62,988 bases of DNA, from positions 1-62,988 of the forward strand of contig NZ_JAENWM010000014.1 of the NCBI RefSeq assembly GCF_016650035.1. Reading direction: 5' to 3'. The notes below the pieces were generated by a model. It did not search any database, was not told the origin of the DNA, and saw only the letters and a program-made list of their open reading frames with translations. Every line of letters begins with the position of its first letter. Position 1 is the stretch's first letter. This DNA is from Clostridium sp. (lineage in GTDB: Bacteria; Bacillota; Clostridia; Clostridiales; Clostridiaceae). Below, piece after piece: positions 1,873-10,477 of this stretch. Made by a program: the position numbers and the translations under genes.

Positions 1873-1910
1873 TAACCCGAATAGGATTAATAAATAATCT
1901 ATCCGGGTTA
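1873..1910 (-). terminator. Hairpin terminator of the LexA-HTH/RNase H-ParB operon
   Basis: Arms AACCCG.ATAG and CTAT.CGGGTT face each other across an AT-rich loop 14 bases after the double-HTH gene. It closes the four-gene operon and separates it from hsdM, which has about 170 bp of its own upstream sequence. Confidence 0.7.
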
Positions 1911-1923
1911 AAATCCAACTATA

Positions 1924-3081
1924 TTATAATACTTCTAGTGCCTTTTCTTTTATGCTATTTATCAACTTTTCAAGCTCATAATTTAATACCAAATCTTGTT
2001 TATCTATGGAAGATGTTAATTTATCGTAATTGTTCTTCATATAATATTCTTTAAGCTTCAAAATTTCTTTTTTTATTTTACATAAATCAAAATACTTCAC
2101 CACAATAGGTTTCATATTCTGTTCAAACTTTTTATTTGGTATCAATTGAGGTATATCTATATCAAATAACAATTGTTGATATTTTGTTTTTTTTCCTCCA
2201 ATTTTTATTCTATTTATTGGAATATCTTTATACTTCTTTATTAATTCAAAACTATTATTATAATCCTCTTCAGACAGCATATATTTATTTCCTATCTTAT
2301 AGTAATTAATTATACCCTTTTCGCAGTATCTTAATAAAGACCGGTGATCCAAGTTAAAATTCTTCACATACATATTCAAAGGATATAATTTGGGAACTTC
2401 AGTTAGTGTTTCATCAATTATCCTAACATAAATATTAAAAATATTAAAAATATCTTCGCTATTAAACTCTTCGGAAACATCAGTCTCTTTAACAACTCTT
2501 TTATTTTCTGGCACCACATTCAAAAACTTTTCCCATGCCTCTATATATTCATTACCACCTATTAATCCATCTATGATTTGATAATTTGTCACTCCAGTTC
2601 CCGTAAAATGATTTTGGCTTAAATATAATAACAAGCTTTCTTTCTCGATAAATTTATTGTTTTTGTATATTACAGATTTTATTACACCAGTTGAACTAGC
2701 TATTACATCTAAATGTTTTTTAGAAATATTCAGCATATCAACTACAATATTGCGAGAAATATATTTGCTGTAGTCCATAACATCAGTTAATTTAGTCTGA
2801 ACGCCAGTATTGCTAAATTTGTTTATTAATGAATCCCTCAATTCAAGCCTCTTTACTCTTTGTTCCTCATTTTCAGTTATTTTAATTCCATTCTCATACA
2901 CTGGAATATATAATAAGTATTTATGATATTGACTTCTACGACAAACGCTGAATTTTTTTAAGTTTTCATCATATTTTATTATATTTCCTATCGCCAATTC
3001 TAAAATTTCACTATATTGCTTTCCACTCATATGTGGAATTTTATTTATCAAATCATTTTTAAGCACTATTTTAGCTGACAT
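1924..3081 (-). CDS. Uncharacterised protein with two excisionase/MerR-like helix-turn-helix segments
   Basis: I do not recognise this 385-aa family. Two segments resemble the short winged HTH of excisionases and MerR-like proteins. One lies at about residues 108-155. The clearer one lies at about 245-280, with LLRYCEKGIINYYKIGNKYM followed by SEEDY, the usual pattern of a recognition helix, a wing and an acidic last helix. The remainder is charged and helical with no signal peptide or membrane segment. SD GGAGGA precedes ATG 3081. It is the last gene of the operon, 15 bases behind the GIY-YIG gene. Inference: a DNA-binding accessory factor of the operon. Confidence 0.65.
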   Translation of the reverse strand: MSAKIVLKNDLINKIPHMSGKQYSEILELAIGNIIKYDENLKKFSVCRRSQYHKYLLYIPVYENGIKITENEEQRVKRLELRDSLINKFSNTGVQTKLTDVMDYSKYISRNIVVDMLNISKKHLDVIASSTGVIKSVIYKNNKFIEKESLLLYLSQNHFTGTGVTNYQIIDGLIGGNEYIEAWEKFLNVVPENKRVVKETDVSEEFNSEDIFNIFNIYVRIIDETLTEVPKLYPLNMYVKNFNLDHRSLLRYCEKGIINYYKIGNKYMLSEEDYNNSFELIKKYKDIPINRIKIGGKKTKYQQLLFDIDIPQLIPNKKFEQNMKPIVVKYFDLCKIKKEILKLKEYYMKNNYDKLTSSIDKQDLVLNYELEKLINSIKEKALEVL

Positions 3082-3096
3082 TTTAAATTCCTCCTA

Positions 3097-3456
3097 TTAT
3101 TTTCTTTTCCAACACAATAAATCTACACCGCTTAAACTAACTAACTTTTGTAATAAAGTTTCCATGTCTGAAATACTTTTACTGTCGTATTCCATCCATT
3201 GAATTACCATATTATCTCGGTTCAAGTAAGTAATGTACTTATTAATCTCACTATCATTTCTCTTACATCCATAGTACCCCTCTAATCTGTTTTTCAAGTG
3301 CATTGTTTGTCCTATTTTTATCATTTTATTATTTTCATATATCACATATATACCAGAGTTATTTGGCACATTATATGTAACATCAGATAAGCTTATTGTA
3401 TTGAGTTTAATTCCAAATTGAAAAAAATTAATATCCTCTATATTTTTGTTTGTCAT
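3097..3456 (-). CDS. Small GIY-YIG-like nuclease domain protein
   Basis: The 119-aa protein is essentially one GIY-YIG-type fold. It has GIY at residues 35-37, KIGQT at 47-51 where the second motif is usually YIG, the conserved arginine at R57 and a likely metal-binding glutamate at E99. The KIG variant is typical of the T5orf172-like branch of the superfamily. The final asparagine of the classical site is not evident, so activity is uncertain. It is cytosolic, with SD AAGGGG before ATG 3456. It lies third in an operon, 37 bases after the RNase H-ParB gene. Confidence 0.65.
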   Translation of the reverse strand: MTNKNIEDINFFQFGIKLNTISLSDVTYNVPNNSGIYVIYENNKMIKIGQTMHLKNRLEGYYGCKRNDSEINKYITYLNRDNMVIQWMEYDSKSISDMETLLQKLVSLSGVDLLCWKRK

Positions 3457-3493
3457 TTTTTTCTACCCCTTTCCATCCTCATTTAATATAAAA

Positions 3494-4444
3494 CTAATTA
3501 TATAAACTATATTTTTCTCTGAAATCTCCTATGTTTAAGGTAGTTATCAATACTGGAATTTCATCTAAACTAACAATTTTAGCACTGAATAAAGCTAAAG
3601 CTCCACATATAAGGCTGTAATATCCATTACCTATATCCCTAACAACAACAGGCCTACTAATATTGCCTGTTTTAGCTATCTTCTTTAAACCTCCGTTATA
3701 TGCCATTGTTTTGCAATTCAAATGAATACTTTCAGTAACTATAATTTTATTGACAGGTACCATAATTGTATTTACCTTATTATCAGCATACAATTTTATT
3801 AATGTATCCTGTTTCTCTATTAACTTACTACTTTCTATAATATTCTTAATTGATTTATCGATTAATTCTTCATTAATATGAAAGTTAGACAGTTCCGACA
3901 TCTCCACAACACTTAAAGCTTCTTCCACATGCTCCTGCATTAAAATATGACGTTCGTAACTTTCAATAGGTTCACTTTTTATTGCAAAAGCAGCAAATTT
4001 GTCTACAATCACATTGTTAATGTCTTTCTTATTAACTTTTTTAAATCTAACACATCCTTTTGCGAAAGTATCAAACAAATTAATAAGTTTTAAAGTCACA
4101 CTTTGATTTTCATTAATCTTTGGTATTCTTTCTGAATTACTAAATCTTTTTTTAATTTTCTTATATCCGTGACAATTAAAAATTTTAATAATGGACAATA
4201 AATCAATTCTTAATTCAATAAAATATTCTTGTCCATTTAATACTGGTATTATTTTTTCATTAAAAAAATTCAAGCCTTCACTTACCGCTGCTACTTCACT
4301 TTGATAGCTACCATTAGATTTCGATTTTCCATATAGAATTATTGATCCTTTATCATCTTCAGTATTAATAATTTTTACTCCAAATCCACCCTTATTATTT
4401 CTATAGTTTCCATCAGTATAAATTATAAACTTTGCCATGTTCAT
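3494..4444 (-). CDS. RNase H domain fused to a ParB/Srx-like domain
   Basis: This is a 316-aa fusion. Residues 4-155 read as RNase H type 1, and all four catalytic acids can be placed: D11 in YTDG, E50 in SEVAAV, D81 in RIDLLS and D148 in VDKFA. That suggests an active RNA:DNA-hybrid nuclease. Residues 228-302 resemble a ParB/sulfiredoxin-like nuclease fold, with VPVNKIIV, SRPVVVRD, then a YYSLICGALAL stretch and DEIPVLIT. The two are joined by a helical linker. The start overlaps the LexA-like gene by ATGA, implying translational coupling. I know of no named protein with this architecture. Confidence 0.75.
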   Translation of the reverse strand: MNMAKFIIYTDGNYRNNKGGFGVKIINTEDDKGSIILYGKSKSNGSYQSEVAAVSEGLNFFNEKIIPVLNGQEYFIELRIDLLSIIKIFNCHGYKKIKKRFSNSERIPKINENQSVTLKLINLFDTFAKGCVRFKKVNKKDINNVIVDKFAAFAIKSEPIESYERHILMQEHVEEALSVVEMSELSNFHINEELIDKSIKNIIESSKLIEKQDTLIKLYADNKVNTIMVPVNKIIVTESIHLNCKTMAYNGGLKKIAKTGNISRPVVVRDIGNGYYSLICGALALFSAKIVSLDEIPVLITTLNIGDFREKYSLYN

Positions 4445-4662
4445 TCCTCTCTATGCTTAATTATTTTTATTGTTCTTGCAACTCTCTTTTCTCTTTTTAT
4501 ATACCCATCTTCTTCTAATTTTTTTAGATAAATATGAATAGTAGAAATCGAATTACTACCATTGATCAGTTCATGCAATTCTCTAATAGTTGGCGTATAT
4601 CCCCTATCCGTCTGGAACTTTACAATTGCCTCTAATATTCTTTTTTCTTTTTCATTAAGCAC
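4441..4662 (-). CDS. Stand-alone LexA-type winged HTH protein
   Basis: The 73 residues match the LexA N-terminal DNA-binding domain: an opening EKRILEAIVKF, TPTIRELHELI, then the recognition helix region SISTIHIYLKKLEEDGYIKR. No peptidase domain follows, so the protein cannot self-cleave the way LexA does. It starts at GTG 4662 six bases after GGAGGT. It is the first gene of a four-gene operon whose promoter carries a LexA-type operator. A natural inference is that it represses its own operon and perhaps competes at other SOS boxes. Confidence 0.85.
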   Translation of the reverse strand: MLNEKEKRILEAIVKFQTDRGYTPTIRELHELINGSNSISTIHIYLKKLEEDGYIKREKRVARTIKIIKHREE

Positions 4663-4763
4663 GTTCTACCTCCGTTTATGTTCTTACTTGTTTTCTAAAA
4701 TGTTTAATAGGTAATTTTAGTTAAATAATTAAAGACAACAAAAAAACTATCTACCTCCTTTGT

Positions 4764-4866
4764 ACTATCGAAAGATTTAACCAAATGTTACCGCCACGGC
4801 ATACTTACACCTAAAGCTCTACATTGGTTTGCTAAAATTATTTTAGCAGTATCTTTTCCCGATAGT
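4764..4866 (-). ncRNA. Putative structured leader RNA of the LexA-HTH operon
   Basis: Nested complementary segments form a compact multi-stem element on the minus strand. P1 is ACTATCG/CGATAGT (4866-4860 with 4770-4764), continued by AAAGAT/ATCTTT. P2 is a 9-bp perfect hairpin at 4848-4830. P3 is ACCAATGT paired with ACATTTGGT and has a GC-rich tip CCGTGGCGG. It sits in the roughly 270-nt leader between promoter and GTG 4662. A second GATAGT followed by seven U (4751-4740) could compete for the P1 5' strand, as in a switch. I recognise no known riboswitch. Part of it also reads as a coding-like frame, so a decayed gene is the alternative. Confidence 0.5.
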
Positions 4867-4939
4867 TTTTGGATAATAAATAGTTTATAAATAGTTTTGG
4901 GAATTTATAAAATATGAAATTTTGAGAAATATAAAAAAT

Positions 4940-4977
4940 ATTATATACCTTTATATATATAATAAAACATATGTTCG
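4940..4977 (-). promoter_or_regulatory. Promoter with LexA (SOS) box
   Basis: CGAACATATGTTTT at 4977-4964 matches the Gram-positive SOS box CGAAC-N4-GTTYC except at the last base. It overlaps the expected -35 region, with a perfect TATAAT at 4945-4940. Transcription would run into the structured leader and the LexA-HTH operon. Repression by LexA, and possibly by the operon's own LexA-like protein, is inferred. Confidence 0.65.
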
Positions 4978-5099: not shown

Positions 5100-5402
5100 C
5101 TATGTCCTGCATAAGGCGGTCTCCTTATTACTAGGCTCTACAAATATATTAGATTTACGGATCTCCGGAAGTTCACTGCAAATTTTTTCGAAATACTCTT
5201 CATTGGTAACTACATAAATATTCTCATTACTAACTAAACATTTTATTCTATCCACAGTGCTTCTTAAAAAGCTCTTATTATTAATAATATTTAAAAACTG
5301 TTTAGGGTTTTGCGCACGAGATAGAGGGTAAAGTCTTGTTCCTTTTCCACCTGCTAATATTAGTACATATAGCAAAAAATACCACCCCAACTTATTACTC
5401 AT
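5100..5402 (-). pseudogene. Truncated mannose-1-phosphate guanylyltransferase-like fragment
   Basis: The 100-residue frame carries the nucleotidyltransferase signature LILAGGKGTRLYPLSR, then NPKQFLNI and a Rossmann-like stretch ending EPSNKETA. It then runs into LCRT and stops. Family members are about 350-460 aa, so roughly three quarters is missing. The N-terminal residues before YVLILAGG are also unlike a normal start. It lies at the edge of the accessory region and is probably a relic. Confidence 0.8.
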
Positions 5403-5573
5403 TTCATTTTATGAGCCAGTAGTCCATGTTGTGAGAACAATTTTTAATAAATGCTAGATTACAATAGTTTATTTGCATAATTTAATAGATTTTTAACCAA
5501 TCTATATAGTGAAAATCAATTTTGTTTTCACCCAGGCTTTTTTAAAATATATTATGAAAGGAAGGATTAGATA

Positions 5574-5875: not shown

Positions 5876-6271
5876 TTATTTTAAATCCAAATTAATACTC
5901 TCTTCATTAAAAGGCGAAACAAATTCCAAACTATCTGTTGTGGTTTTGCCTCCACTTCTTTTTAGTAATTCAAATACATCATATTCTTTAAGTTTATACT
6001 CCTTTAAGACAGAGTTTGCATCCCTTTTACAAGGAAGACGATGTGAAAATGAAGTAAATAATTCTTCTCTAAAATACTCTACATCTAATCTTGGGAACTG
6101 CGGTAATGGAGAAAATCCATACTCCTTGGCTTTTCTTACACCCTCAGCATCATATTTAAAATAATATTTTTCACCATTCCTACACAATTCACCTACTTTA
6201 AAACATTCCTCTTGTTCGTTTCTCCATATCATCCATATTATATTCTCCACTTCGCTAGCCATCCCTCTCAT
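5876..6271 (-). CDS. HipA N-terminal-like small protein next to helicase
   Basis: The protein has up to 131 aa. The pattern KVGEL....KYYFKYD, then a PLPQFPRLD stretch, a helix with LFTSFSHRLP and finally DVFELLKRSGG resembles the N-terminal subdomain that precedes the kinase in HipA-type proteins. Here it stands alone with no kinase core. The start is uncertain: ATG 6271, ATG 6262 or the ATG of MIWRNE are all possible. It follows the helicase-nuclease gene by 126 bases on the same strand and may be cotranscribed. Inference: an accessory or regulatory partner of that enzyme. Confidence 0.55.
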   Translation of the reverse strand: MRGMASEVENIIWMIWRNEQEECFKVGELCRNGEKYYFKYDAEGVRKAKEYGFSPLPQFPRLDVEYFREELFTSFSHRLPCKRDANSVLKEYKLKEYDVFELLKRSGGKTTTDSLEFVSPFNEESINLDLK

Positions 6272-6397: not shown

Positions 6398-9300
6398 CTA
6401 TCTAATTACATTTTTGTTTATTTTTTGTTTTAATTTTTCCATAACTTCACTTGGATTTCTATAAAATTCACTGGCGCGTATTTTATGAAATTCCCATCCC
6501 ATTCTTTCAAGACACATTTGCATTTCATACTGCTTTTGCCAATTGTAATCTTCATCCGCAGGCATCCCAATACATTTTACTGCTATTTTTTTATATTGAC
6601 CACTCCTCTGCTGTTCTAAACATAAATCTGTTTCTACAACAAAATCTATTGTGTATTTCCCTACTTTTACCTTTGGTGTAAGCTTAAATCCGCTTTCTTT
6701 TATACTGCTCGCTATACGCTCTTCAAAATCATTTAATAGTAAATATTCATCAGATTTAGTTTCTTCCCTTAGTTCATTTCCCTCTAGACAATATTTAAGC
6801 AAGGAGTACCTAACACATTTATTATTAAGGTCTTCTAAGTCTACAGAATGAAATAGCCACATTTGATTTCTTGCACGACTGGTAGCTACATTAAATCTTC
6901 TTATATCAGATCCCTTTGTTAGGGCCGTAAATTTAGCATTGTTTGCTATGACCATGGAGAGGAACATTACATCTCTCTCATCCCCTTGAAAGGAATAAGC
7001 ATCCCCACATATAAGTCTTCTTTGTAGCATTTCCTCCATTCCAAGCTTTTCTACTAAGGAGGCTTGTATAAATTCCGATTGAGTGTCTCCTAAAAGTGAT
7101 ATAACTCCCATCGTCATTCCCTTATACCTATCATTACTACAGCACTCTATTATCTTCTCTACAATACACTCTGCCTCACATACGTTTAACGCCTTATTTT
7201 CATCCTTACAGCCTTCTATAACTTTATATGGCACTATAAATTGTCCAACTTTTTCAGCAGCATCAATTCTTCTTAAAGGAATTATTTCATTAGAATAACA
7301 TAATGCATTACTAAATCCAATTATCTCTGGCACACATCTAAAGTGTTCCTTTAATAATACCCTACTTGGAAACACCCTTAAAGCCGTATTGTATAAACTT
7401 GTTTTTAAATCAAACCACTGCGCATGTGGGATACCTTCTAAATACGTTTCTATCAAAGTTTCTACAACCACATGGTCTTTTCCAATAGCTTCGGGACTTA
7501 TTTGCTTTTCATCGCCTACTATTATTGCTTTTTTAGCCCTCATTAATACTGTTATAGCTGATACGTCACTTTGACTGCTTTCATCCACAATTACTACATC
7601 AAACAGATTATCTGTAAGCTTTAAATTTTCCATGACTCTATTGATTGGCATAATCCATACAGGAATAACGTCCTTGCAATTCTCCATCTCTTTTTGTGCG
7701 ATTTTTCTATACTTTACTGCCTGGGTGCCTGTACCTTTTCCTATCCTCTTTATGGCTTCCATCCAAGTGAATAAGCTTCTCTTCTGAACCTCAGTAGTTC
7801 GTTCTATTTGGTTAAGCCAACTTTTTTTAGAAACAAGTTCTCTTATTATATATTTTTCTTTGATTTTTTGATGTGCTATATTCTTCTCTAATTCTTCTAC
7901 ATCCACTTGTTGTAATTCGCACAAATAATCATTCCATTTTTTCCACTGCCATGTTTTTTCCCAATTTAAATTTTGTAACTCTATCATGAGTGTTTCTTCA
8001 CGGTTTATCATACTTTGGAATAATATAGGACAACATCCTTCTATCTTTTTGCTTAATTCTGTTAACTCTAAAACCATGGGTACTAACTGAGTTAAACTAT
8101 CTATCTCCATATAAGCAGCTCGAATATCACTTATGCTTCTTGTATTTATAGCATTGTGCAGTTTCCCGAGGCATCCTACGCTGCTTGTGCTTGTCTTTAT
8201 TTCTTCTATTTCACCACTTAATTTATTATACCTATTTATACTGCTTAAACTCTCAAACCCATTTTTAAGATAAACGTATGTTTCCTTTTGGTACCAAGAT
8301 AAATTTTCAGTTAAATATTTATCTGGCAGAAAATTAATTATGTTATTCCTAAAGTCATTGTCCCACTCCATGATGATTTCAATATTTCTAATCTCTTTCG
8401 CCACTTCCGTTATATAGTTTAAATTTGATTCATCTATAAACACTCCACCATATTCTTTTACTGTATTGTTCCAAAGACTCTTAAGTTCTCTTTGCAATAG
8501 TTGCAATTTTATAAATAAATCTACAACCACTATTTGTTCACTATTATTTATAAGTTCATAATCCACCGTGCATCCTTCAAATATATATTTAAGTTTCCCA
8601 TGAAGAAACTTAAACACACCTCCTATTTTACCCTTTTCAAGGATTGTTTTTGCTATAACATCAAAGTCATTTTTAAATATGTTTAAATCAACATCCTTTG
8701 GTATTTCAAGTTTATGATTATTTAGTTCGCACTTAATTTCACCTATATTTTTTATATATTCATTACATTTAGAAGCTAACTTTTTCCAAGGTGCTTGCGC
8801 CTGGGTACTAGAATAATAATTTTTCATAACCTCATTTAGCCAGTTATCTTCGAATCCTTCTAGTGTTTCTATGGCATCATCTACAAATTTTAGTAACCTT
8901 CTATTTCCGTAATTTATAGAACTTGTATTATTCCAATTTTTTATATTATTCTCATAAATATGTAGCTCCTGTTCTAATTTAAATAATTTTGATATTCTAT
9001 CACACAAATCATTTACATTAGGCAGAACTGCCACGCACCTATCTATGTTGTTTATTTCATCCATTTGATCTTTTTTGATTAGATCAAGCAACGAAACTAA
9101 CTTTTTAAAGTCTTCATTGCACAATGGATTCGCCCTATTAAATTCCACCTTGTCAACTATAAAGTGATGAGCCTCTTCATTATTTTTAACAAAGCTAGCC
9201 ATTTGCATTAAGGTATATTTTTGACCCTCGTATTCTACCTTCTCATTTTCTCTATCTTCAATGCATTTTATTTCCTTATATAAATTTTCTTGTACCTTTA

Positions 9301-10477
9301 GGCCCTCACTATGTTTATATTTTAAGAGTTTGATTTCCTTTCGTAACTCTTTAGTATCCATAGATAAATTTTCTGTTATTTTCCTAACAGACTCGTCCAA
9401 TTCTTCTAATGATTTTTTATCATTACCTAGTATGCTAATACATAGTGCCCTAACTTCTTCAGGTATTTTATCAGATAAAACCCTTAATGCTTTGTCTGTT
9501 TGGCTTGTCACAAGTACCCTTTTCCCATGAGCCAAAAGATGACATATTAGATTAGCTATAGAATGGCTTTTACCAGTACCTGGTGGCCCCTGTACAACTA
9601 TACCAAAGTTTTCAGCCAGTTTCTTAGTTATTTCCATTTGTTCTTCATTTGCAGGAAGTGGAAACAGCACATCTTGTCCTACTTCCTTCCACTCCTCAAT
9701 AGTCTGAATATCTTGTACTAATTCTTCCTCAGAGACTAGTGCCTCTATAGTTTTAGGAATAGGAAATCCACTTCTTATTTGAGATAATACATCATTTAAC
9801 TCCATATTCCAAAGTCTTGTATCTACCTTTCGAAGGATTATGCAAGGTGCATTGTAAAATTGTATATTGGTATCAATTTTTAAATCAACCTGGCAGGATA
9901 CTTCATTGATGTAACCCCCCTCTATTGGAGATTTCAAAAGTGCAGCTATCTCTTCAAAAATTTTTGAAGCGGTTTCAATATTTCTAACATCCAAGGCCAT
10001 GTTTTTCGCTTTATTTCGAAGTGTTAATAAATTATCTAAGTTTACCTCTAGATATTCATTTAAAAACTCAAGTTCCACATTAGTTTGGTTATTATATGGA
10101 TTTAGAGTAAATATTTTTTTAATTGAATCAAATTTTATTTCCATCTTAGTTGTAAAGATAGGGTGAACTATTTCTTTCCCTTCCTTTCGCCAAGTTAAAA
10201 GGCCATTTGCCCAAACCATCTCTAAATCCTCACTATTTTTTTCTAATTGTAAATATGTTTTCTGAAACTCACTATATAACTTTTCTGCACTATCATCTAT
10301 GCTGAACCAGTAATCCTTATTTTCATCATTATTAAAAGTACACCCGCAAATATTTTGAAGCGTCTTTTGCCAATATACTTTTTCATATTCATTAATATTT
10401 CTTATAGTCTTTTGGTTCATATTTTTAATACTTAATAAATATGAAAATATTTTCTCTACTTTACTATTTATATTCAA
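6398..10477 (-). CDS. Superfamily 1 helicase with C-terminal nuclease-like domain
   Basis: This 1359-aa protein has a Walker A GPPGTGKS at residues 297-304 and DESSQ (motif II) near 960, followed by IVGDEKQISPEA (motif III). Motif V is the stretch with SFQGDERDV and motif VI is FNVATSRAR. These are hallmarks of SF1 (Upf1/Dna2-like) helicases. Between motifs I and II lies an insert of more than 600 residues with coiled-coil character. Residues of about 1230-1345 resemble a Vsr/MTES_1575-type PD-(D/E)XK domain, with YTIDFVVETD and KKIAVKCIG. TTG 10477 is the start, nine bases after GGAGGT. The architecture resembles single-gene anti-phage helicase-nucleases. Confidence 0.8.
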   Translation of the reverse strand: MNINSKVEKIFSYLLSIKNMNQKTIRNINEYEKVYWQKTLQNICGCTFNNDENKDYWFSIDDSAEKLYSEFQKTYLQLEKNSEDLEMVWANGLLTWRKEGKEIVHPIFTTKMEIKFDSIKKIFTLNPYNNQTNVELEFLNEYLEVNLDNLLTLRNKAKNMALDVRNIETASKIFEEIAALLKSPIEGGYINEVSCQVDLKIDTNIQFYNAPCIILRKVDTRLWNMELNDVLSQIRSGFPIPKTIEALVSEEELVQDIQTIEEWKEVGQDVLFPLPANEEQMEITKKLAENFGIVVQGPPGTGKSHSIANLICHLLAHGKRVLVTSQTDKALRVLSDKIPEEVRALCISILGNDKKSLEELDESVRKITENLSMDTKELRKEIKLLKYKHSEGLKVQENLYKEIKCIEDRENEKVEYEGQKYTLMQMASFVKNNEEAHHFIVDKVEFNRANPLCNEDFKKLVSLLDLIKKDQMDEINNIDRCVAVLPNVNDLCDRISKLFKLEQELHIYENNIKNWNNTSSINYGNRRLLKFVDDAIETLEGFEDNWLNEVMKNYYSSTQAQAPWKKLASKCNEYIKNIGEIKCELNNHKLEIPKDVDLNIFKNDFDVIAKTILEKGKIGGVFKFLHGKLKYIFEGCTVDYELINNSEQIVVVDLFIKLQLLQRELKSLWNNTVKEYGGVFIDESNLNYITEVAKEIRNIEIIMEWDNDFRNNIINFLPDKYLTENLSWYQKETYVYLKNGFESLSSINRYNKLSGEIEEIKTSTSSVGCLGKLHNAINTRSISDIRAAYMEIDSLTQLVPMVLELTELSKKIEGCCPILFQSMINREETLMIELQNLNWEKTWQWKKWNDYLCELQQVDVEELEKNIAHQKIKEKYIIRELVSKKSWLNQIERTTEVQKRSLFTWMEAIKRIGKGTGTQAVKYRKIAQKEMENCKDVIPVWIMPINRVMENLKLTDNLFDVVIVDESSQSDVSAITVLMRAKKAIIVGDEKQISPEAIGKDHVVVETLIETYLEGIPHAQWFDLKTSLYNTALRVFPSRVLLKEHFRCVPEIIGFSNALCYSNEIIPLRRIDAAEKVGQFIVPYKVIEGCKDENKALNVCEAECIVEKIIECCSNDRYKGMTMGVISLLGDTQSEFIQASLVEKLGMEEMLQRRLICGDAYSFQGDERDVMFLSMVIANNAKFTALTKGSDIRRFNVATSRARNQMWLFHSVDLEDLNNKCVRYSLLKYCLEGNELREETKSDEYLLLNDFEERIASSIKESGFKLTPKVKVGKYTIDFVVETDLCLEQQRSGQYKKIAVKCIGMPADEDYNWQKQYEMQMCLERMGWEFHKIRASEFYRNPSEVMEKLKQKINKNVIR

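Follow-up and report, generated by a model that had tools for sequence, protein, structure and literature searches.

A close described counterpart of the regulatory arrangement considered here is gp6 of phage GIL01, a LexA homologue in truncated form that acts as an activator of phage late genes (PMC6182141). We compare it here with a 73-amino-acid protein encoded at the head of a four-gene operon of Clostridium sp., located on the contig NZ_JAENWM010000014.1, which was analysed as a whole (62,988 nucleotides (nt), hereafter the window) and is one of the 167 contigs of a 3.97-Mb genome. Both proteins consist of a DNA-binding domain only and both are associated with a site that overlaps the -35 element of an SOS-linked promoter, but gp6 binds a palindrome of its own, GaCACAC GTGTGaC, and not a LexA box. 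Similarly, the lexA-dinB-yolD operon of Psychrobacillus phage PVJ1 has a short lexA gene (67 amino acids) near its head and a LexA-type box just upstream, whereas its cargo is a dinB-type polymerase instead of nucleases, its AAAC box is weaker and one small gene precedes lexA. In the window, the short LexA gene is followed by the genes for a 316-amino-acid protein with an RNase H and a ParB-like domain, for a GIY-YIG-like protein and for an orphan protein. Our leading, though tentative, reading is that this operon is SOS-controlled nucleic-acid-processing cargo of a defence or mobile island. The most likely status of the RNase H-ParB gene is that of island cargo, rather than that of a member of a new four-gene defence system; at this locus a wandering gene of this kind has been joined to a short LexA and to a control region of SOS type.

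The RNase H-ParB protein resembles bacterial RNase HI in its metal ligands (D-E-D plus D/H) and in its predicted fold, which is that of RNase H type 1. It differs from RNase HI in being fused to a ParB-like domain and in that its single-sequence scores lie far under the RNase H cut-offs (13.8 versus 25.8 bits in Pfam); its ParB_N score of 18.6 versus 26.3 bits is below the cut-off too. With the family profile and the predicted fold, the RNase H assignment becomes firm and the ParB-like one is strengthened, in keeping with the fusion proposed in an earlier interpretation made from the DNA letters alone (the sequence-only reading). The metal ligands D11, E50 and D81 are kept in all nine aligned members, the fourth ligand being D in five of them and H in four. 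The ParB-like part matches Noc both by family profile (5.5e-7, approximately profile residues 245-297) and by fold similarity; the VIA-align structure matches concern almost solely the RNase H domain and, with no ParB chain listed, are uninformative on this second domain. ParB partition proteins have a central helix-turn-helix (HTH) and a C-terminal dimer domain, and a GERR-type CTP motif is typical of them. The window protein, in contrast, ends just past the ParB-like domain without either of these parts, and carries G-A-L-A at the position of the motif, with A284 where six of the nine aligned sequences have R.

Eleven intact members of the family were found, all of them clostridial. As the family profile also picks up plain RNase H and ParB (364 of 391 genomes of the class match it at E <= 0.001), only near-whole-profile matches were counted. 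Full-length matches are present in 7 of 225 genomes of the order and in 4 of 391 of the class sample, and, with a stricter cut-off, in 1 of 299 of the phylum sample, namely the window's own genome. The window protein has no match in the phage or plasmid collections; its relatives are matched by one domain only, namely by the RNase H part in two viral contigs and in four phage records and by the ParB part in one plasmid. No published description of an RNase H-ParB fusion was recognised among the papers listed in searches of an open-licence library. Separately, the family includes a truncated gene (89 amino acids; L084, 4547-4816) beside genes that by eye are transposase- and AAA-like, and elsewhere in genome G491 there is another copy, which contains stops. 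In L023, a separate 151-amino-acid RNase H-like gene (9939-10394; a weak match, named by eye) lies near the RNase H-ParB gene. Two stretches of one genome that family genes adjoin (L025, 7232-7474, and L027, 2527-3121) show an attenuator-like succession of a very stable hairpin, a T-run and a ribosome-site-like stretch.

Mobility, restriction or defence genes lie within about 8 kb of 9 of the 11 intact members (see Table), a figure that is a raw neighbour count with no base rate and comes from scans of chosen neighbours, ten proteins per scan. In L025 and L026, a DUF499 protein and a 189-amino-acid protein are shared at 89–91% identity, whereas the RNase H-ParB proteins of the two loci are only 31% identical, which suggests that the two genes are separate arrivals at the same type of island. 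A Tn7-like element can be recognised in L098 (7328-18761), where glmS is followed by tnsA/B/C-like genes (by eye) and by TnsD/TniQ-type genes, with an RNase H-ParB gene 30 bases behind the last of them.

In the control region of the operon, the LexA-type box CGAACATATGTTTT overlaps the -35 element of a TATAAT promoter, just as the sequence-only reading had it. For C. difficile, boxes of the form GAAC....GTTT are reported at lexA, recA and ruvC (PMC4234289). The genome under study carries the box AGAACAAACGTTCG at recA and AGAACACATGTTCG in the dinB region, both genes being named by eye, and AGAACATAAGTTTG at lexA (reverse strand of the printed site). In the window, the strict pattern CGAACRNRYGTTY is rarer than the looser ones, with one occurrence against 0.05 expected and presence in 5 of 100 shuffles, whereas the pattern GAACNNNNGTTY is unremarkable (2 found, 2.11 expected) and the box with two mismatches allowed is found once for 1.05 expected. 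Nor does the class of promoter-like sites exceed expectation (27 in the consensus scan, 27.2 expected). SOS control, as claimed in the sequence-only reading, is plausible in that sequence, position and the boxes of the genome's own recA, dinB and lexA fit, but the box counts are weak against chance.

The 73-amino-acid protein scores well above the Pfam cut-off for the LexA DNA-binding domain (37 versus 23.7 bits) and is 38% identical to the LexA of its own genome over query residues 8-70. The lexA model matched only in positions 4-72 of 203, in agreement with the earlier statement that the C-terminal self-cleaving peptidase is missing. Its recognition segment, S-x-S-T-x-H, resembles that of LexA in the alignment, which favours the same box as its target; repression and activation by it are both compatible with the sequence, since gp6 uses its own palindrome. 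The protein matches 15 phage records, and nine of these, together with one chromosomal copy from the same genus, made up ten loci in which LexA-domain genes were surveyed. Three of the ten genes encode a DNA-binding domain only and are of Gram-positive type by sequence, i.e. the same-genus copy, that of Phage Wrath (82 amino acids) and that of PVJ1. All three have a LexA-type box at most 300 bases upstream, and so do four of the five full-length LexA genes; none lies upstream of the genes for a 106-amino-acid protein of E. coli phage mEp390 and an unassigned 155-amino-acid protein (L133). In total, the surveyed loci contain 12 boxes in 60,616 bases, of which ten are the upstream ones. To judge from these sequences, a short LexA gene with a LexA-type box is a repeated arrangement.

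Several observations nevertheless weigh against our reading of the operon, in addition to the missing base rate of the neighbour count. The promoter has a poor -35 element and is unlisted in the consensus scan. Genome-wide, the box patterns are not above their controls (20 versus 24 and 18 versus 30), and a search of the 2.5 kb upstream of 11 further loci of the family (ten intact members and the ParB-only locus L027) gave no LexA box matching the pattern. L021 and L023 are without neighbours of the above kinds, except for a transposase-type HTH in L023, and restriction and defence neighbours (type I restriction-modification (R-M), PLD-helicase/DUF1156/DUF499 and McrBC-like genes) are about as frequent as replication and mobility genes. 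Because the counts do not exceed chance genome-wide, the support for the box comes from its position and from the parallels in the own genome and at the short-LexA loci, and because the other family loci have no box, SOS control would belong to the window copy and not to the family. Likewise, with neighbour frequencies this similar, defence is almost as good a fit.

In such a role RNase H-ParB would be an effector that, after damage caused by infection, attacks the hybrids and R-loops of phage or plasmid replication, with the GIY-YIG protein as a second nuclease. We consider this unlikely, although it fares best among the alternatives. Besides the restriction-type genes that adjoin family copies, the hsdM gene of the window and its helicase-nuclease with resemblance to the NCBIfam ProA and Hhe models argue for it, as do the two so dissimilar copies next to nearly the same DUF499 system. 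Then again, three of the four operon proteins are without a PADLOC match and the fourth hits CARF/Csa3 models only via its winged HTH, the partners differ at almost every locus, replication-type genes are found there as well, and island neighbours are often unrelated passengers. By a narrow margin, we prefer a function in the upkeep or processing of mobile DNA to a dedicated one in defence.

Less likely still, and rather doubtful, is an accessory role in host DNA repair, that is, SOS-induced removal of R-loops or misinserted RNA from damaged chromosomes, retained for its benefit to survival. The SOS-type control region would suit such a role, in PVJ1 a gene of the short-LexA type stands ahead of dinB and yolD, and the short LexA gene of the same genus is followed by an open reading frame (ORF) whose start by eye resembles the protein of the dinB region in the genome under study; moreover, the predicted RNase H activity fits R-loop clearance. 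A repair function would, however, hardly be expected from a family with so patchy a spread in order, class and phylum, and whose other members have no LexA box nearby.

Promoter and first gene are separated by a leader of approximately 270 nt, which includes a folded RNA of 111 nt, an addition to the sequence-only reading, which had missed this fold. Its predicted stability of -30.2 kcal/mol (z = -3.97) was reached by none of 200 shuffles; for the surrounding 201-nt stretch the effect is smaller (z = -1.72, 11 of 200 shuffles), and a coarser scan with 20-nt steps and 40 shuffles gave a best z of -2.8 for the leader. As windows of 110 nt in other intergenic stretches reach z values down to -6.8, the low z alone is not special. 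The consensus terminator scan lists a terminator-like stem within the leader (4801-4789), and by eye an alternative pairing of AAAAACTATC with GATAGTTTTT can be drawn, with a T-run further down. The leader has no Rfam match above chance, no full-length relative in the 225 genomes of the order, only pieces of 22–52 bases by blastn in 23 other genomes of that order, and no relative in phages, in plasmids or in viral contigs scanned with two patterns. A leader RNA common to other loci of the family was considered and rejected, as the structures look unrelated by eye.

The third protein of the operon (119 amino acids) resembles GIY-YIG proteins of the UvrC/T5orf172 type in G-x-Y, G, R and E, which are kept in four of four aligned sequences. 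It differs from them in having KIG for YIG (KVG in two of its three relatives and YVG in the third) and in scoring below the Pfam cut-off (17.3 versus 22.6 bits), and its best NCBIfam match, UvrC with 1.5e-5, is far under the cut-off as well. Hence the likeness seen in the sequence-only reading stands together with part of the motif, but its role as a nuclease is weak and catalysis is doubtful. Matches at E <= 0.001 occur in 19 of the 225 order genomes, many of them in ORFs of 616–634 amino acids that are taken for UvrC, so that co-occurrence counts mean little; there are none in phages or in a scan of viral contigs. As for the 385-amino-acid protein, one of the two excisionase-like HTH segments ascribed to it is recovered as a weak HTH_17 by Pfam (17.6 versus 27 bits) and the second is seen by eye only. 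This protein has no NCBIfam match, its AlphaFold model is unusable (pLDDT 34), and it occurs in 1 of the 225 genomes, its own, while phages, plasmids and a six-pattern scan of viral contigs are devoid of matches. Among the ORFs of at least 60 amino acids around 13 other loci, the 73- and 385-amino-acid proteins had no counterpart other than themselves at E < 1, and none of these loci has the complete set of four genes. The GIY-YIG protein matches at L025 and at a same-genus stretch without an RNase H-ParB match, and its pairing with RNase H-ParB thus recurs once. On the confinement of the 385-amino-acid protein to a single genome and on the neighbour comparison, one conserved system of four genes was rejected. 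Within the genomes, collections and loci searched, this is the outcome that the sequence-only reading had itself named as its refutation, namely that the four genes are not found together elsewhere. A named defence system was rejected too, as no specific PADLOC or NCBIfam defence model was found for the four proteins, in line with the earlier statement that no such system is known with this set. What is left of the proposed damage-responsive, possibly defensive nuclease module is plausible SOS control in a defence-island-like setting, but not a single four-gene system.

Table. Features of the window and neighbours of RNase H-ParB genes at other loci (L numbers).
Locus	Feature	Position	Strand	Remarks
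window	LexA-type (SOS) box CGAACATATGTTTT	4964..4977	-	by sequence and promoter position
window	-10 element TATAAT	4940..4945	-	-35 at 17-nt spacing overlaps LexA box
window	folded leader RNA, 111 nt	4758..4868	-	closing stem ACUAUCG/CGAUAGU and two hairpin arms
window	73-amino-acid LexA DNA-binding domain without peptidase	4441..4662	-	GTG start; Pfam LexA_DNA_bind E 2.9e-9
window	316-amino-acid RNase H-ParB-like two-domain protein, recurring gene	3494..4444	-	
window	119-amino-acid GIY-YIG-like protein, UvrC/T5orf172-like, KIG for YIG	3097..3456	-	below Pfam cut-off
window	385-amino-acid orphan protein, weak HTH_17 segment	1924..3081	-	HTH_17 E 0.0046
window	hairpin past last gene, likely terminator	1873..1910	-	-18.4 kcal/mol, z = -4.18
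window	truncated NTP transferase	5100-5402	-	
window	short HipA-N-like ORF	5876-6271	-	PDC-M03B, about half of model covered
window	1359-amino-acid helicase-nuclease	6398-10477	-	AAA_11/AAA_12 and MTES_1575; resembles PDC-S37, ProA and Hhe anti-phage proteins
window	neighbours			hsdM, helicase-nuclease
L022 and L091	neighbours			type I R-M, recombinase (partly by eye), Rep-like protein
L024	neighbours			serine-recombinase-like, about 5 kb off (by eye)
L025	neighbours			PLD helicase, DUF1156, GIY-YIG
L026/L098	neighbours			TnsD/TniQ gene, DUF499; glmS and tnsA/B/C-like by eye
L082	neighbours			resolvase-, Vsr- and C5-methyltransferase-like (by eye); DnaD-like
L083	neighbours			integrase, G2P-type Rep with helicase
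L094	neighbours			McrBC-like PDC-M26A, DUF2357–PDDEXK
L127	same-genus short LexA gene, in-frame stop	5130-5410		LexA box 45 bases upstream

The four minus-strand ORFs of the operon (1924–4662) were found again as densely packed as first described, the 73- and 316-amino-acid ORFs sharing 4 bases and the remaining intergenic gaps measuring 37 and 15. The hairpin at which the operon was said to end is indeed stable, with none of 200 shuffles equalling it, and is followed by UUUUAUAUUUA, but it is absent from the output of the consensus terminator scan; termination at this site is likely. The operon is close to the left end of the contig, which from 10,580 onward contains housekeeping genes (by eye), and with a G+C content of 26.7% it is no clear outlier from equal-size stretches of 10,580–62,988 (29.7%, standard deviation 1.9%). 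Both neighbours named in the sequence-only reading, a type I R-M gene and a helicase-nuclease, were found, the former being hsdM as recognised by Pfam N6_Mtase and the latter having a likeness to NCBIfam ProA and Hhe that is far under the cut-off. Together with the HipA-like fragment they support a defence-island-like setting by gene content, and the fragment and the truncated NTP transferase look like signs of island turnover. That passenger genes came under one promoter by accident in a decayed or random assembly, with the box there by chance, would accord with the so far unique gene set, with these short or truncated flanking genes and with a box that is not rare by loose patterns or genome-wide, but is improbable in view of four intact ORFs with tight spacing, a promoter-type region, an end hairpin and active-site residues kept family-wide.

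How might a cargo operon of this kind work? We suggest that host LexA keeps the promoter closed and that DNA damage would open it. The first product would be the short LexA with its DNA-binding domain only, which RecA should not inactivate because the peptidase is missing. Its most likely target is the box of its own operon, where it would be either a damage-proof repressor, giving a pulse of expression, or an activator like GIL01 gp6. The RNase H-ParB protein would be the main effector. The expected activity of its RNase H domain is cleavage of the RNA strand of RNA:DNA hybrids, while the ParB/Srx-like domain, by binding to DNA or to a nucleotide, should position the protein. In this way it would clear or process hybrids such as R-loops and primers on mobile DNA, for replication or upkeep of the element. 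Observed are the genes, the box sequence, the predicted fold, the conserved metal ligands and the repeated occurrence next to mobile or defence genes, whereas LexA binding, all catalysis, the direction in which the short LexA acts and the purpose are inferred. The GIY-YIG and the 385-amino-acid HTH proteins may be helpers added locally. A bolder proposal, to which we give little credence, is that RNase H-ParB proteins are a novel enzyme class of mobile islands for the targeted degradation of hybrids, in which a ParB/Srx-like, perhaps nucleotide-gated sensor directs the RNase H to the RNA:DNA hybrids of competing replicons, and that this copy is wired to damage by the box and a RecA-proof mini-LexA, with the leader RNA as a second check.

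For the family, the repeated finding of RNase H-ParB genes near Tn7-like, integrase, Rep and restriction genes makes the fusion a concrete candidate for a role in replicon conflicts, with RNA:DNA hybrids as its target. For the organism, the mini-LexA encoded behind a LexA-type box offers a testable circuit built on a LexA that lacks its peptidase and that RecA should not remove.

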